Below are positions 7,034 through 39,909 of a stretch of DNA of 40,205 nucleotides, in pieces. The stretch's first letter is position 1; the number at the start of each line of letters is the position of its first letter. Both the position numbers and the translations under genes were made by a program. The stretch comes from a virus. The stretch lies in IMG/VR virus record IMGVR_UViG_3300049218_000513, positions 1 to 40,205 of that record. One strand, given 5' to 3'. The notes under the pieces were generated by a model. That model was given only the letters and a program-made list of their open reading frames with translations, searched no databases and had not been told where the DNA came from.

Positions 7034-7762
7034 TTAACCGCTCGAGGAGGAGCTGATCGGTAGGCCGGACTGCGTCACGAGGGCGGCGCCCGCCTGCGTC
7101 AGAAACATCGCGCCGCCTGAGATGCTGGCGGAGATGATCGTGGCTCCCGACTGCGTAACGAGCGTGGCGCCGGCCTGCGTGACGAACATCGCGCCGTCCG
7201 AACCGCTGCCGCCCGAACCGCCGCCGGATGAGGACGCAAGCAGGGCCGCCTGAGCGAGGATCAGCGCCTCGTTCGCCGCGGCCTGCGCGGCGGCAATCAG
7301 GCCCTGGATGTAGGACAGTGCGACCTGCACGACCTGGATCTGCGCCGGCGCCGCACCTTGCCCGGGATTGATGACCGTGACGGTCGCCAGCAGCTCGATC
7401 ACGCGTCCCTGCGCCGTCATTGCAATCAGGTCGATGGCGTAGCTCTGGCCTGGCGTGCCGCCTACGTCGATCCAGATCACGGCGAGCTTGCCCCAGCCGC
7501 CCAGATAGACGATCGGCAGCCCTGCGGGCCCGACCGAGCCGAGAGCGACCGACGCAACGGTGTCGCCGGCCGGAATGCGTGCCGTCAGATCGAGCGCATA
7601 GTCCCATCTTGTGCCGACCGTCTTCGACGGGAGCGGCACGCTGCCGCTGGCCGACACGCCGCGCGTCCCGGCTGCCGACACGCCCGGCAGCACCACCGTC
7701 CTGTCTGCCGATGGCGCCCAGCAGATGGCCGAGGCGACCGAGGTGTAGCCGACCGTCGTCAT
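7034..7762 (-). CDS. Fibre-tail adaptor-like structural protein
   Basis: 242 residues. Residues 50-130 form a beta-rich domain (WDYALDLTARIPAGDTVASV, WIDVGGTPGQSYAIDLIAMTAQGRVIELLATVTV), a pattern seen in phage fibre-tail adaptor proteins. A helical Ala-rich segment follows (about 145-185). The C-terminus has imperfect repeats of MF(V/L)TQAGA(T/A)LVTQSG separated by Gly/Ser linkers. Its start overlaps the stop of the preceding 110-residue protein (ATGA). It probably connects baseplate and fibres; this is inferred from domain pattern and location. Confidence 0.5.
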   Translation of the reverse strand: MTTVGYTSVASAICWAPSADRTVVLPGVSAAGTRGVSASGSVPLPSKTVGTRWDYALDLTARIPAGDTVASVALGSVGPAGLPIVYLGGWGKLAVIWIDVGGTPGQSYAIDLIAMTAQGRVIELLATVTVINPGQGAAPAQIQVVQVALSYIQGLIAAAQAAANEALILAQAALLASSSGGGSGGSGSDGAMFVTQAGATLVTQSGATIISASISGGAMFLTQAGAALVTQSGLPISSSSSG

Positions 7763-8091
7763 GGCGTCGTCGTGGCGAATTGGATCGAGATGGCATTCGC
7801 CAGGATCGTCACCCGCTGACCGTTGGTTTGCGCGGCATCAGCGTTGATGGGGGCAGTGAAGTTACCAAACCACCACTGCGCGCCGGCGCTATCGAACATC
7901 GCCCAGCTGGTAAGAGCCGTCCCCCATTGCGTCAGTGGAGTTCCGAAATCCGCCTGCGCATCGAGCGAGGCCTGACCGCTGACCAGTGTCGTGATGGTGA
8001 AGGGCACGCGCGCATAGCCGCCGCCGGAGGGCTCCGTCAGCGTGGTGCCGGTCAAGGTTCCGATGCCCAGGAAGCCATTGATGAAGGCCAT
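7759..8091 (-). CDS. Small phage tail-fibre-region structural protein
   Basis: 110 residues from the ATG at 8091, chosen over a GTG at 8100 because GGAG lies 8 bases before the ATG. The N-terminal part (FINGFLGIGTLTGTTLTEPSGGGYARVPFT) matches a pattern common in small phage tail-fibre proteins, where an EP-SGGGYAR motif precedes a beta domain with a conserved Trp (SWAMFDSAGAQWWFGNFTAP). It is coupled to the next gene by an ATGA overlap. The exact role is unknown. Confidence 0.55.
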   Translation of the reverse strand: MAFINGFLGIGTLTGTTLTEPSGGGYARVPFTITTLVSGQASLDAQADFGTPLTQWGTALTSWAMFDSAGAQWWFGNFTAPINADAAQTNGQRVTILANAISIQFATTTP

Positions 8092-8551: not shown

Positions 8552-9436
8552 CTAGTAACCTATTGCGATGTAATAATAGCCGTCATTGCCGCCGGCGGGC
8601 GCCGTGTTGATGGCCTGATACCCGCCGGCGTTAACGGTCTGCAGGCCGAGCGCGCCATTCTCCGGAGGCACGCTGGCAAGGAACGACCCGACGATGATCA
8701 GACAGGTGTTCGGGAAGGTGATGCCGTATGAAAAGTCGTTGGCAATACTCCCGGTTTCGACATCGCCGCTGCCCCATTGCAGGATCATTCCGCCGGGCAG
8801 CTTCTGATAGCCAGTCGTGCCGTCGTTAAAAGTGAACTGGCTGGCGACAATAATCGGGCTCCCGGAGACCTCTGCCGTTCCCGTAAAATTCGGCGAGTTG
8901 ATCGGCGCCTTCGTATTCTCGACCCCTTCCGCACGGGACGTTTCCGCGGAGATTGCAGCGCTCAGAGTGCTTTCTGCGCCCTCCGCGCGCGTCGTCTCGG
9001 CCGACACCGCATTCGTTCGATTGGTCACCTCGGTCGAGATCGAGGTGCTCAGAGCGCTTTCCGCGGCTTCGGCGCGCGTCGTCTCAGCCGAGATGGCATT
9101 CGTCCTGTTTGTCACCTCCGTCGAGATTTCCGTGCCGAGCGTTGCCTCCGCCCCTTCGGCGCGCGTCGTCTCGGTCGCGATGGCCGTGGCGATATACGCC
9201 ACCAGAAGGGTCGCGATCTGATTCTGGAGAGTCTTGCTCAGCGTGCCGCCGAAAGCCGTAACGAGGTTGCAGAGTTCCTCCTGCACGGCATTGGCCCAAT
9301 CCTCATCGACGGTGGTCGGAAAGATCGGTGGTGAAGCTCCGGGCGTCCCGCCCGTGAAATAGCTGTTGGGTTTTGGCCCGACGGCAGCTGGCGTCGGCAT
9401 CGTCGAAACGGCCGAGGCAATATCTATGCGATGCAT
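8552..9436 (-). CDS. Tail fibre protein with heptad-repeat shaft and gp53-like tip
   Basis: 294 residues. The N-terminus (MHRIDIASAV, then FTGGTPGASPP and DEDWANAVQEEL) matches the baseplate-attachment part of P2/Mu-type fibres. Residues 89-174 are about three tandem copies of a 29-residue unit (ETTRAEGAE...ISTEVTNRTNA), predicted to be a trimeric coiled-coil shaft. The C-terminus (about 208-294) resembles the gp53-like receptor-binding tip, with YQKLPGGMILQWGSGDV and closing beta strands NDGYYYIAIGY. It sits just upstream of a fibre-assembly-like gene. It is the best candidate for the main receptor-binding fibre. Confidence 0.85.
   Translation of the reverse strand: MHRIDIASAVSTMPTPAAVGPKPNSYFTGGTPGASPPIFPTTVDEDWANAVQEELCNLVTAFGGTLSKTLQNQIATLLVAYIATAIATETTRAEGAEATLGTEISTEVTNRTNAISAETTRAEAAESALSTSISTEVTNRTNAVSAETTRAEGAESTLSAAISAETSRAEGVENTKAPINSPNFTGTAEVSGSPIIVASQFTFNDGTTGYQKLPGGMILQWGSGDVETGSIANDFSYGITFPNTCLIIVGSFLASVPPENGALGLQTVNAGGYQAINTAPAGGNDGYYYIAIGY
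8915..9172 (-). repeat. Tandem 87-bp repeats encoding the fibre shaft
   Basis: About three in-frame copies of an 87-bp unit encode residues 89-174 of the fibre. Each unit carries ETTRAE-AE and, in the first two, ISTEVTNRTNA. Such repeats allow the shaft length to change by recombination. Confidence 0.85.
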
Positions 9437-36727: not shown

Positions 36728-36972
36728 CAGGCCGATCCCGCGCAGCTGGAGACCACAGCGGCTTTCCGCCGTAGCCTGCAGGCCGCCAGCGTGATGGCAT
36801 TCGCCAGCGCCAAGGGCAGACGCAGGTCGTGGCCCGGGCATTCGTCAGCGATCAGGATGCCAAGCGCCACAGCGAGATCGATGCCAAGGTTCTCGACGCC
36901 GCTTTCCAGCCGTAGCCGGTCCAGCAGCGCGCGGCCACGATCGAAGCTCTGAGGTGTGCAGTCCAGACTCAC
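36727..36972 (-). CDS. Small early protein of unknown function, GTG start
   Basis: 81 residues from a GTG at 36972 (GTGA overlap with the upstream stop). The composition is Leu/Ala-rich and helical (GRALLDRLRLESGVENLGIDLAVALGILIADE, LANAITLAACRLRRKAAVV). It is coupled both to the upstream HTH-like gene and to the primase. No motif is recognised. Confidence 0.65.
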   Translation of the reverse strand: MSLDCTPQSFDRGRALLDRLRLESGVENLGIDLAVALGILIADECPGHDLRLPLALANAITLAACRLRRKAAVVSSCAGSA

Positions 36973-37829
36973 GCAATTGCCCCGCGGAGGGAAGGCGTCA
37001 GCGCGAATGGCGGCATGCCGAGATCGGCGCGCTTCGCGTTGATCTTGTCTATCGGTAGCGTGCCGCGGCCCACCATGATTCCGCGCTGGCCTGCCCAATG
37101 GATGATCTCGGTCGCATTGGCCGGTACCGGCGTCGTCGAGACCGACTGCTCGGCGGGACCGCCGCGCGTCCAACGATGTGCACCGGCGAAAACTGTCACG
37201 CGATACGGGTTGATAGGGGGACCTGGAAGCGCGTTCACGGCGGCGATGATCTGCGCCATCGGCGCGCCGGTTTCATAAAGCGGCTGCGCCACCGCCAGAC
37301 GCTCCGGCGTCCAGGAATCGGGCGGTTTCAGCCGGGATTCGGGCGGCCGCTGCCAACCCTTCGTCGCCGCCATTGCGCCGATCTGATTTTTCGAAACCGC
37401 GATCTTCGAAGGCAGAGCGTTCAGTCGTAGTTCGATATCGCCGAGGGGAACGCCGCTCGTATAGGTCTCGCGCAATAGCTCCAGCCGCTCTGGCGTCCAT
37501 CGAGACGCACTCAAAAAAGCCGCCGGCGGAGCTTTCGGCTCCGCCGGCGCCGGGTCCCCACGCGACTTATTCCCGTGGGATCCCGAAGTCTGGGAGGAAA
37601 CGTCCAAGAAGTCCCCAACCGGCGCGTCATGCGACACGGGCGCCACCGGTTGGTCAGTCACCGGCGAAGCTGACACCTCCGCCGGGTGGGAATGCGGTGC
37701 CACGGTGGATTCGAGCCGCCGGAACTCCGCTTGTAGTGCGCCCGTGAAGTTCGCGATTGCCTGCGCCAGCTCAAGGCAGGCACGCTCAAGGCGATCGAGG
37801 CGCAACAATGGTGGCGATTGGTCGCTCAT
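36969..37829 (-). CDS. Tandem helix-turn-helix protein, possible GcrA/Myb-like DNA binder
   Basis: 286 residues from the ATG at 37829 (ATGA overlap with the GcrA-like gene). Residues 5-45 form a helical segment. A low-complexity Pro/Ala/Ser linker (about 50-108) follows and contains a terminator-like hairpin (see 37513-37549). Then come two similar units: 109-161 (RWTPERLELLRETYTSGVPL, then NALP) and 172-223 (SWTPERLAVAQPLYETGAPM, then NALPG, and RVTVFAGAHRWTR). The WTPERL-x-x-LY-x-G-x-P pattern resembles the first helices of GcrA and Myb/SANT-type domains. A third weaker unit may lie near 240-275. It may bind repeated DNA sites; the target is unknown. Confidence 0.7.
   Translation of the reverse strand: MSDQSPPLLRLDRLERACLELAQAIANFTGALQAEFRRLESTVAPHSHPAEVSASPVTDQPVAPVSHDAPVGDFLDVSSQTSGSHGNKSRGDPAPAEPKAPPAAFLSASRWTPERLELLRETYTSGVPLGDIELRLNALPSKIAVSKNQIGAMAATKGWQRPPESRLKPPDSWTPERLAVAQPLYETGAPMAQIIAAVNALPGPPINPYRVTVFAGAHRWTRGGPAEQSVSTTPVPANATEIIHWAGQRGIMVGRGTLPIDKINAKRADLGMPPFALTPSLRGAIA
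37513..37549 (-). terminator. Terminator-like hairpin inside a coding gene
   Basis: On the minus strand a 12-bp G/C-rich stem (plus-strand halves at 37521-37532 and 37538-37549, five-base loop at 37533-37537) is followed after two bases by six T residues (plus-strand A-run at 37513-37518). It has the look of a strong intrinsic terminator, yet it encodes the Ala/Pro linker of the tandem-HTH protein in frame. The T-run is also a T_TTT_TTG slippery heptamer in frame. Confidence 0.65.
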
Positions 37830-38269
37830 GCCGCGACCAGGCGCTTGATGGGCGTGAACGCGATCGCCCGATGTACGGCGCAATACGGCTCAGCCACGTC
37901 CGTTCGGGGCTCGCCGCAGTATTTGTGGGTCGCGGCCGCCGCAAACGCCCACATGGGCCAGCGGCAGCCGTCTGCAGGCGGCCGCTCACGTGGCGCGGGC
38001 TTCGGGATCGGCGCGGCAGCTGCCCGCTTCGCGCCATCCGGCAATTTCAGCGCCGCCGCCCGCTCCGTCTTGGAGGGCGCCTGCGCTTTCGGCGTCACTG
38101 AAGTCCGAATCGGGCTCGGCCGCGACGCGAGCTGGAGGCGATGCGCTTTCCCGACGACGGCATTCTTGCTGATGCCGAGAGCTTCGGCGATCGCGGATGC
38201 TTTCCAGTCCGAGTCCCACATGGTGCGGAGCTCGGAAATCATCAGCTCCGTCCAAACCGCGTCGCTCAT
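37826..38269 (-). CDS. GcrA-family transcription regulator
   Basis: 147 residues from the ATG at 38269 (ATGA overlap with the preceding gene). The N-terminal GcrA helix-turn-helix is clear: VWTELMISELRTMWDSDWKASAIAEALG, ISKNAVVGKAHRLQL. The linker is Pro/Ala/Lys-rich. The C-terminus has GCRWPMWAF, CGEPRTDVAEPYCAVHRAIAF, matching the conserved C-terminal element of GcrA, which contacts RNA polymerase sigma70. GcrA proteins activate cell-cycle genes at methylated GANTC sites in alphaproteobacteria. A phage copy may redirect host transcription or time early genes. Confidence 0.85.
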   Translation of the reverse strand: MSDAVWTELMISELRTMWDSDWKASAIAEALGISKNAVVGKAHRLQLASRPSPIRTSVTPKAQAPSKTERAAALKLPDGAKRAAAAPIPKPAPRERPPADGCRWPMWAFAAAATHKYCGEPRTDVAEPYCAVHRAIAFTPIKRLVAA

Positions 38270-38472
38270 AGGTCGCCTTTCGCGGGCCGCTTCGCGCGGG
38301 CTTTCTTCTTCGGTGAAACGGTGACATCGCGAATGACCGGCGTCTCGGTCCGCTCGCGCTCGATCGGCGGCGGCATGCGGATCACCCCACCACGCGCGAG
38401 CGTGTAGCCGGTGCTTGTGCGCAGCTGGTCGTGCAGCTGGGGGAACCGGCTGGAATCGAGACGCGCGCTCAT
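38266..38472 (-). CDS. Small basic early protein
   Basis: 68 residues. The N-terminal half has FPQLHDQLRTSTGYTLARGG, and the C-terminus is very basic (KKKARAKRPAKG), so nucleic-acid binding is plausible. Its ATG overlaps the stop of a 22-residue peptide ORF (ATGA), and its stop overlaps the GcrA-like start. No family is recognised. Confidence 0.55.
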   Translation of the reverse strand: MSARLDSSRFPQLHDQLRTSTGYTLARGGVIRMPPPIERERTETPVIRDVTVSPKKKARAKRPAKGDL

Positions 38473-38537
38473 GGGATCGCTCCGGCGGCCGGATCGTTGC
38501 CGACCCGGCCGCCTTCACCTACCGTTGGTGCTGTCAC
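38469..38537 (-). CDS. 22-residue peptide ORF, copy 1 of the GG-x-VGND motif
   Basis: GTG-started 22-residue ORF (VTAPTVGEGGRVGNDPAAGA plus two residues). Its stop overlaps the ATG of the 68-residue gene. The same peptide motif occurs at 39404-39472 and within the gene at 38765-38947. No clear ribosome-binding site precedes the GTG. It may be a leader peptide or an uncoupled remnant. Confidence 0.4.
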   Translation of the reverse strand: MTAPTVGEGGRVGNDPAAGAIP

Positions 38538-38556
38538 ACGACCGACGGAGGATTCT
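38480..38556. repeat. 77-bp direct repeat, copy 1 (leader of the small plus-strand gene)
   Basis: About 90 percent identical to 39415-39491. It ends in GGAGGATTCT directly before a TTG start codon on the plus strand. On the minus strand it encodes most of the 22-residue peptide. A weak promoter-like pair TTGCCG-17 bp-TACCGT is present. Confidence 0.85.
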
Positions 38557-38808
38557 TTGGCCGAACTATCGATGGCACGCGTTGCCGAAAATCTGGAAAT
38601 ACTTCGCGCCGAAACGCAGATGCTGAGCATCGTCGTTACCGGTCTACTGAGAAACGCGACGCCAGAAGCAAAAGCGTACGCAGTCAACCTCATAAATGAA
38701 GCCGCAAAAGCCGAACCAAGGTTCGCGCTGGACTTCCAAGGGGAGGAGTTGGCGAGGCAAGGCATCACTCGGCTGGCCTCTGACTGGATTGCGGTGCTGA
38801 CGCTATAA
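38557..38808 (+). CDS. Small plus-strand gene A, helical protein, TTG start
   Basis: 83 residues from TTG 38557, the position matching the ATG of the related gene at 39492. GGAGG precedes it by 6 bases. The sequence (AELSMARVAENLEILRAETQ, then LSIVVTGLLRNATPEAKAYAVNLINEAAK) is mostly helical with no known motif. It lies on the strand opposite to the operon and its 3' end overlaps the gene at 38765-38947 by 44 bp. Confidence 0.6.
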   Translation: MAELSMARVAENLEILRAETQMLSIVVTGLLRNATPEAKAYAVNLINEAAKAEPRFALDFQGEELARQGITRLASDWIAVLTL

Positions 38809-38947
38809 AAATATCCATTGCCAGCCTGTACTGCCGAAGCACCGCATCCCAGTCGTCACCTGGGACATAGGCCGCTTGCTGCTGGGTCACACCGCCGGCG
38901 GCTTCGTCATTGCCGACTTGGCCGCCTGCCGCTGTTACTTCATCCAT
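38765..38947 (-). CDS. Small early protein carrying the GG-x-VGND motif
   Basis: 60 residues from the ATG at 38947 (overlaps the upstream stop by 8 bp). Residues 5-20 (TAAGGQVGNDEAAGG) match the 22-residue peptides, and residues 20-28 (VTQQQAAYV) match the N-terminus of the neighbouring 155-residue protein (VTQQHAPHV). The rest (DDWDAVLRQYRLAMDIFIAS) is one helix. It looks like a fused version of the peptide plus the start of its neighbour. Confidence 0.55.
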   Translation of the reverse strand: MDEVTAAGGQVGNDEAAGGVTQQQAAYVPGDDWDAVLRQYRLAMDIFIASAPQSSQRPAE

Positions 38948-39407
38948 GACCGCGCGCCTCCCGACGCCCCAGGATGGCTTCGGCCCGCAGCACAACCAGC
39001 TTGACATCCACAAGGTCGGCCAGAGCCTTGGCCCGCTGCGGGTCGGAAAGCGGCGCGCCGGACAGATGCGCGGAGATCTGCGCAAATAGGTCCGCGACAT
39101 CGGCGCCCAGGCGGGCGACCTCGATGGCGAGGTCCGTCTCCGACATGGGCGACACGGGGATCAGCTCGTACCCTTGCGCCCGCGCCAGGGCGGCCGTCAC
39201 AAGCGGCTCGCCGGCGACGGTTTCGGCGTCCAGCAGCACATCGACCGGGACGTAGCGGTCGCTATGGACGTTGCCATAGTCGCTGGCGAGGCTGCGCGCC
39301 GCCCGCGTACAGGATGTCACGGCCTCGACGCCACCAAGGCGACCCACCAGGAGCTTCCAGGCCGTTTTGACTCTGGCATAGACGTGCGGGGCGTGCTGCT
39401 GCGTCAC
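38940..39407 (-). CDS. Phage regulatory-like protein, CII-like by position
   Basis: 155 residues from GTG 39407 (GTGA overlap with the peptide ORF). Residues 8-60 contain VYARVKTAWKLLVGRLGGVEAVTSCTRAARSLASDYGN, a helix-turn-helix-like region, followed by RYVPVDVLLDAETVAGEPLVTAALARAQGYEL. This type of sequence (PVDV-x-x-x-DAE-x-x-x-G-x-PLVT) recurs in phage regulators of the CII group. The C-terminal part is helical. It may control early genes; the assignment is moderate. Confidence 0.5.
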   Translation of the reverse strand: MTQQHAPHVYARVKTAWKLLVGRLGGVEAVTSCTRAARSLASDYGNVHSDRYVPVDVLLDAETVAGEPLVTAALARAQGYELIPVSPMSETDLAIEVARLGADVADLFAQISAHLSGAPLSDPQRAKALADLVDVKLVVLRAEAILGRREARGHG

Positions 39408-39472
39408 GGCGCGCCTCCGGCGGCCAGGTCGTTGCCGACCCGGCCGCCTTCACCTACCGTTGGAGCTTCCAC
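39404..39472 (-). CDS. 22-residue peptide ORF, copy 2 of the GG-x-VGND motif
   Basis: GTG-started 22-residue ORF (VEAPTVGEGGRVGNDLAAGG plus two residues). Its TGA overlaps the GTG of the 155-residue gene. It is nearly identical to copy 1 at 38469-38537. Whether it is translated is unknown. Confidence 0.4.
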   Translation of the reverse strand: MEAPTVGEGGRVGNDLAAGGAP

Positions 39473-39491
39473 ACAACCATCGGAGGATTCT
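39415..39491. repeat. 77-bp direct repeat, copy 2 (leader of the small plus-strand gene)
   Basis: About 90 percent identical to 38480-38556, with 32 consecutive identical bases in its middle. It ends in GGAGGATTCT directly before the ATG at 39492. Confidence 0.85.
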
Positions 39492-39746
39492 ATGGACGAA
39501 CAATCGCTCGAAAGAGCGCTCAATATGGCCAATGGCGAGGCCATTTTCGCGGGCCTTAACGTGGCCGCGCTTTGGACCGCCCTCATCAAGCACGGGCTGA
39601 TTCCAAAGGATGACGCTGTCGCAGCAGTGGATGCCGTTTTGCTCATGCTTGAGAAGCACCGGAAATCAAGTCCGCTGGGCCCTGCGCCGGTCGATTACGC
39701 AAGATCTCGGACACAAGCTCTTCTTGAGCGCTGTTCCAAAATGTAG
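39492..39746 (+). CDS. Small plus-strand gene B, helical protein
   Basis: 84 residues from an ATG with GGAGG 6 bases upstream. The sequence (DEQSLERALNMANGEAIFAG, LWTALIKHGLIPKDDAVAAV, LLMLEKHR) is helical with a hydrophobic core, and it has the same length and layout as gene A. No enzymatic motif is present. Its 3' part overlaps the opposing gene at 39643-39909 by 104 bp, so one of the two may not be translated or they may regulate each other by antisense. Confidence 0.65.
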   Translation: MDEQSLERALNMANGEAIFAGLNVAALWTALIKHGLIPKDDAVAAVDAVLLMLEKHRKSSPLGPAPVDYARSRTQALLERCSKM

Positions 39747-39909
39747 CGTCCACAACGGTCGGCGTCCGCGACGGCTTGACGATGGATCGTGGCCACCGCA
39801 TCCACGGTTCCGCCTGCTCCATCGGGAGCCGCCGTTCACGGAACAACCGAATCCCCTCAGGCAATCCCTTGGGGATCTTCGCCGGCCGGCGTAGCGCGAA
39901 CCGTGTCAT
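39643..39909 (-). CDS. Small early protein of unknown function
   Basis: 88 residues from an ATG at 39909 coupled by TGATG to the upstream gene. The sequence is rich in Arg, Pro and Trp (FALRRPAKIPKGLPEGIRLF, WMRWPRSIVKPSRTPTVVDA). No family is recognised. It overlaps plus-strand gene B by 104 bp. Confidence 0.5.
   Translation of the reverse strand: MTRFALRRPAKIPKGLPEGIRLFRERRLPMEQAEPWMRWPRSIVKPSRTPTVVDATFWNSAQEELVSEILRNRPAQGPADLISGASQA

Follow-up and report, generated by a model that had tools for sequence, protein, structure and literature searches.

The window, an entire viral contig of 40,205 bp, contains two small plus-strand genes, A and B, that run against a minus-strand operon, and the 3' ends of which overlap the ends of opposing genes by 44 bp for gene A and 104 bp for gene B (Table 1). 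An earlier note described both genes as following a near-identical 77-bp leader and this holds, with the leaders (38480-38556 for gene A and 39415-39491 for gene B) being 89.6% identical, sharing the same end, GGAGGATTCT, and leading to a TTG start in gene A and an ATG start in gene B. The repeat extends around both leaders to 92 bp at 88% identity and the second copy matches with E = 2e-29, so the repeat is not due to chance. The view that this is a duplicated cassette with its own start signals can be extended well beyond this phage, as the same arrangement with a conserved Shine-Dalgarno sequence, start codon and promoter-like -35 and -10 hexamers is found in dozens of prophages. What the earlier note did not contain are two further copies in a longer contig, a possible degenerate copy, and two conserved hairpins, H1 and H2, on the minus strand.

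Table 1. Positions in the window of genes A and B, the surrounding operon genes and the parts of the two element copies
Feature	Position	Strand	Remarks
Gene A	38557..38808	+	ORF, 83 aa; TTG start; small gene opposing the operon
Gene B	39492..39746	+	ORF, 84 aa; ATG start; small gene opposing the operon
Operon gene, start adjoining element A	38266..38472	-	
Operon gene overlapping 3' end of gene A	38765..38947	-	60 aa; from sequence
Operon gene, start adjoining element B	38940..39407	-	CII-like activator, PHROG 101, E 1e-6
Operon gene overlapping 3' end of gene B	39643..39909	-	88 aa
Element copy A	38466..38567	- (operon strand)	Covariance-model match, 96.7 bits
Element copy B	39401..39502	- (operon strand)	Covariance-model match, 104.3 bits
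Possible degenerate element copy without small gene	38879..38952	-	14.1 bits, E 0.014
-35-like hexamer TTGCCG, gene A	38497..38502	+	In H2 loop; TTG 96-98% conserved, 65 copies
-10-like hexamer TACCGT, gene A	38520..38525	+	17 bp from -35; A and T 98% conserved
Shine-Dalgarno GGAGG, gene A	38547..38551	+	From sequence
-35-like hexamer TTGCCG, gene B	39432..39437	+	From sequence and column conservation
-10-like hexamer TACCGT, gene B	39455..39460	+	From sequence and column conservation
Shine-Dalgarno GGAGG, gene B	39482..39486	+	From sequence
Hairpin H1, copy A	38518..38551	-	About 9 bp; -10 A opposite bulged T
Hairpin H2, copy A	38484..38513	-	13 bp, GCAA loop
Hairpin H1, copy B	39453..39486	-	From covariation
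Hairpin H2, copy B	39419..39448	-	13 bp, GCAA loop

Gene A is supported by a second-codon-position GC minimum of 0.42 and by homologues of 32-38% identity in two other phages or prophages with the same element ahead of each. One genome (G393) carries a full-length relative at 31% identity that is preceded by GGAGGATTC and a start, with an upstream hairpin that agrees in size but not in sequence, and the same prophage has a second element copy ahead of a different gene. Relatives of gene B occur in Acetobacteraceae genomes, the best at 41% identity, and its homologue in G361 has the same element at its head. The conservation in related phages to which the earlier note had looked is thus found for both genes, together with the element. 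Its suggestion of a cargo immunity function found no backing, with neither A nor B matching a defence family, or an annotated family above the cut-off, and with gene A giving no match to the PADLOC defence models; a nucleotide search with the 2.4-kb region in phages and plasmids returned nothing useful. Next to this region are genes for a GcrA-like regulator (37826-38269, Pfam E 1e-16) and for another protein, part of which weakly resembles GcrA (36969-37853).

In the longer contig, IMGVR_UViG_3300049217_000371 (49,289 bp), the A and B proteins are identical and two more element copies are present in the other early operon on the other strand, where a reverse ORF begins at GGAGGATTC and the operon gene begins at the opposite end. 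One of these reverse ORFs encodes a proline-rich peptide of 39 aa, which is found again behind the element in other prophages, a weak likeness given its low complexity. Similarity among the four copies of this phage is 81-92%, and duplication is their probable origin. Both early operons also have genes whose starts are preceded by another repeated leader, TCGGGAGGCGCG, with 4 exact matches in 16 kb against 0.7 expected; its sites are at the minus-strand starts 38947, 39909 and 40205 of the window and at L020:7677-7688(-), 9068, 9363 and 10326(+).

The leader is a member of a large and apparently undescribed family of elements of about 100 bp in the phages of acetic acid bacteria. When one element was compared by DNA BLAST with 397 genomes of the Acetobacteraceae, to which Asaia lannensis belongs, GC-rich palindromes gave chance matches and nothing else, and a covariance model was therefore needed. 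This model (R1) was built from six aligned copies that had themselves been found without a structure model, and was matched at full length with 32 bits or more in 33 of the 397 genomes, as counted from the match table, with usually 1-4 copies per prophage. A larger alignment, A5, taken from larger regions, holds 65 unique copies. Against Rfam the element had no match above the gathering score, the window giving one sub-threshold match and six copy-bearing loci giving tRNAs only. Outside the family, several matches in a class-wide sample are unrelated hairpins; five others (L146, L148, L151, L152 and L154) resemble diverged elements, and in four of the five a small inverted ORF is present. L146 (G449) has three copies within about 1.6 kb, two with an inverted small ORF, and two in which the H2 loop reads GAAA rather than (G/A)CAA and H1 is kept. 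In one prophage group element matches on both strands overlap at a single place (L097:4633-4754, L099:1188-1309 and L142:9253-9374).

These counts need to be read with the manner of collection in mind. R1 rewards G-U over A-C as well as the conserved bases of its seed, and as most copies came from R1 the larger counts are biased upwards; the seed and a set found by a sequence pattern are the only ones free of pairing bias, although the pattern search did demand the loop and -35 bases. Related copies are also not independent of each other.

On the small-gene strand the element reads TTG-N17-(C/T)A(C/T)(C/T)(A/G)T, followed by GGAGG and then the start codon, with the TTG of the -35 and the A and T of the -10 conserved in 96-98% of the 65 copies. 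Among the 59 copies outside the seed the spacer is 17 bp in 49 and 18 bp in 7, and when the 32 positions invariant in the seed are ranked by their conservation in the non-seed copies the five promoter bases come first, second, third, fourth and joint sixth. The features of a sigma-70-type promoter that are present are the TTG of the -35, a spacer of about 17 bp, A-11 and T-7. A strict sigma-70 consensus scan of the region returned no promoter, there being no good match to TTGACA/TATAAT, and the -10 hexamers CACCAT and TACCGT are weak by consensus. A promoter for the small gene within the element is therefore strongly suggested by sequence, though not proven. The start site itself is found in most copies, with a Shine-Dalgarno sequence and ATG, GTG or TTG near columns 4-11 in 51 of 65 (8% of random positions), and for 25 of 46 copies a codon-based caller that was blind to the element has a small gene begin at this site, compared with 1% at random positions. 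There are 14 or 15 of the 65 copies that have no small gene at the expected column, some of these having a start displaced by 25-50 nt.

The opposite, operon strand of the same element is able to form two hairpins, which in the six seed copies consist of 9 bp (H1) and 13 bp closed by a four-base loop (H2). In the seed 97.7% of cells are paired and 8 pairs are double-changed, with pairing falling to 17-49% when the arms are slid. In A5 93.3% of cells are paired, at most 53% with the arms slid, and double changes are seen in 20 of the 22 pairs, with 290 double-change cells against 85 +/- 7 in shuffles. It is apparent that the stem sequences of H1 and H2 differ completely between phages, and between copies, with the pairing kept. 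Folding of single copies agrees with both hairpins for copy A; for copy B H2 is always formed and H1 appears in a longer piece but is absent from the minimum-energy fold of an 87-nt piece.

The single mismatches in H2 indicate which strand is folded, being G-U rather than A-C on the operon strand by 74 to 6. As the covariance model favours G-U, the count was repeated on viral contigs found by the H1 pattern and the loop, a pattern without any requirement for H2 pairing, and with L098, a chance pattern match rejected as an element, left out; here the ratio was 25 to 1. That the mismatches are almost all G-U on the operon strand points to a hairpin selected there, and the folded molecule is probably the operon-strand RNA. 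The bases of the element that are most conserved are largely unpaired in this structure, with the promoter TTG placed in the loop of H2 and the A of the -10 opposite the bulge of H1. An intrinsic terminator was rejected, as no T-run follows H2. A conserved peptide on the operon strand (..VGEGGRVGND..) was also rejected as a general explanation, codon-position bias being absent in the element itself. In 57 of 58 copies one of the operon-strand frames is free of stops, but a -10 box read in complement in this frame is unable to give one. A codon-position bias of 106:48:46 occurs in an operon-strand frame downstream of the H2 loop in one subgroup only (L062:14847 and downstream, L099, L104 and L111), as if an operon peptide starts inside the element.

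The proteins encoded behind the element are mostly of 40-150 aa and fall into several groups that by sequence are mostly unrelated to each other; they include A-like proteins (three phages), B-like proteins (two), proline-rich proteins, an 'ALIQAAATLT' group and many singletons. When closely related small genes are compared in pairs, there is an excess of changes at third positions (23:8:4 and 15:3:3). Searches of the small proteins against PHROGs, Pfam and PADLOC gave almost no matches, and with PADLOC only two models were matched by the 46 small proteins, by one member each and both WYL-type. Three paralogous 53-aa membrane-like proteins (WQLLKDLLRLGAVLALLYLLAV) are encoded in a rightward early operon at L004:6894-7054, 7679-7840 and 8613-8774, and two of the three follow element copies.

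All 10 genome loci tested are prophages, with phage-family proteins nearby that include terminase, primase, helicase and tail proteins, and in 40 of 46 cases the next gene beyond the element has the orientation of the operon. The distance from the element to that gene is variable, from 95 to over 300 nt, whereas the position of the small-gene start is fixed. Where prophages have copies on both sides of the regulatory centre, L167 among them, the operon strand points outward. The family includes phiKM1, a mitomycin-inducible phage of Komagataeibacter maltaceti (lysogen NBRC 14815) that is predicted to be functional (PMC8566455), in the deposited annotation of which the element is flanked by PhiKM1_170 (reverse) and PhiKM1_180; another copy is located upstream. 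In L092 and L096 the elements are followed by operon proteins that by eye are similar to the CII-like activator encoded next to element B. Lambda CII activates antisense promoters, and by analogy this CII-like activator might activate the weak antisense promoters here.

We lean, with somewhat more belief than doubt, towards A and B being self-promoted small-gene cassettes that are carried backwards in early operons by temperate phages that infect acetic acid bacteria and are silenced by structured operon RNA. Within this, the anatomy of the cassette, with its element, start signals, hairpins and inverted gene, is well supported by comparison of the copies, and it is from complementarity only that we infer the silencing of the small gene. 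When the early operon is silent, in the prophage state or early in the lysogeny decision, the small gene would be transcribed from the promoter in the element. When the operon is transcribed its RNA would form H1 and H2 across the small-gene promoter and leader, with the loop and arm of H1 complementary to the predicted 5' leader and Shine-Dalgarno sequence of the small mRNA, and this structured countertranscript, together with transcriptional collision, would silence the small gene. The antisense control of A and B that the earlier note had proposed is thus plausible, with the covarying RNA hairpins of the operon strand lending it indirect support. More tentatively, and with less confidence than doubt, it may be suggested that the element represents a new, two-faced class of regulator, with the essential promoter bases placed in the loop and bulge of two covarying RNA hairpins of the opposite strand, and serves as a reused plug-in that would express any small gene only while the early operon is off.

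The hairpins may instead serve the operon, insulating the early mRNA by blocking Rho or by being processed and thus protecting the next operon gene. This is the main rival, and one we regard as unlikely but deserving of serious attention, as about 250 nt of operon RNA go untranslated at each inverted small gene, and the hairpins sit on the operon strand between this untranslated stretch and the next operon gene, the start region of which comes directly after H2 in the window copies. It does not account for a next gene that begins anywhere from 95 to over 300 nt away when the start of the small gene is fixed, nor for a loop and bulge that coincide with promoter bases. A role in control of the small gene is favoured because its start is the constant partner of the hairpins, whereas the operon gene lies at a variable distance.

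The remaining readings are all of low probability. That the hairpin works as single-stranded or cruciform DNA, be it a Frpo-like promoter, a replication start or a site for a hairpin-recognising recombinase that spreads the cassettes, seems quite improbable to us; multiple copies do head unrelated genes, G-T is also tolerated in DNA hairpins, the best-conserved bases are largely unpaired and Frpo promoters fold too (PMC11541004), yet neither a recombinase nor a single-stranded stage was identified for these tailed phages, and the top conserved bases are exactly those of a -35 and -10 at 17-bp spacing. Very improbable is the reading of the palindromes as operators for a phage repressor that controls both strands, even though they overlap the -35 and -10 of the small-gene promoter and occur in several copies per phage. 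A DNA-binding protein would fix the sequence, whereas the stems are wholly different between phages and copies with the pairing kept, and the G-U bias is left unexplained; with the stem sequences not conserved, this reading was rejected. Least credible is a plain duplication of a translation leader within one phage lineage and without special function, which would fit the similarity of the four copies in this phage but is contradicted by the persistence of the element and its pairing in dozens of diverged prophages, the small genes of which are different.

Repeated elements at the start of small phage genes have been described before. In cluster K mycobacteriophages the SAS/ESAS repeats are short sequences found where unrelated small genes of the non-structural half of the genome begin. 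About half of them have an inverted repeat upstream, and the authors find RNA pairing of these inverted repeats unsupported; the SAS itself is a 13-bp box, GGGATAGGAGCCC, that lies within 3-7 bp of a start codon and nearly always has the same orientation (PMC3203893). The acetic-phage element likewise heads unrelated small phage genes with an inverted repeat, but unlike SAS/ESAS its pairing covaries strongly and its gene opposes the operon, and the SAS box had 0 matches at up to 2 mismatches in the 16 kb that hold the four element copies. A promoter and stem-loop repeated among shuffled small accessory genes is also described for the PeSL of T4-like phages (cited in PMC4503421); judged from that description, in different phages, the promoter-like signal and stem-loop repeated at small accessory genes appear similar. 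Moron genes, accessory genes of prophages, lie antisense to lytic genes with their own promoter (PMC7067206). The genes headed by the element similarly appear to have their own promoter-like signal and oppose lytic genes in prophages, the difference from morons being that one element heads many unrelated small genes. We know of no report of moron genes that share one structured start element.

In IS10 the hairpin RNA of the opposite strand (RNA-OUT) overlaps the 5' leader and Shine-Dalgarno sequence of the mRNA of the gene (RNA-IN). The structured operon-strand RNA would overlap the 5' leader and Shine-Dalgarno sequence predicted for the small mRNA in a similar way; unlike IS10, no dedicated short antisense promoter or transcript was identified, the operon transcript itself would be the antisense RNA, and a second hairpin covers the -35. 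Tailed phages inject double-stranded DNA, which is unlike the setting of the Frpo promoters. These single-stranded promoters of conjugative plasmids carry a -35 and -10 within a folded region that heads early genes, as the element does, but their fold mimics double-stranded promoter DNA whereas the key bases of the element are mostly unpaired (PMC11541004).

Two orphan genes are thereby placed in a regulon-like family of small phage genes, all of them within reach of one model, and the phages concerned include at least one that is sequenced and inducible, phiKM1. If the switch reading is true, the element would give temperate phages a compact means of carrying genes that are on in the lysogen and are shut off automatically by the RNA of the lytic operon. 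Small uncharacterised prophage genes of this kind are candidates for the control of lysogeny and the manipulation of the host, and the element allows them to be listed.
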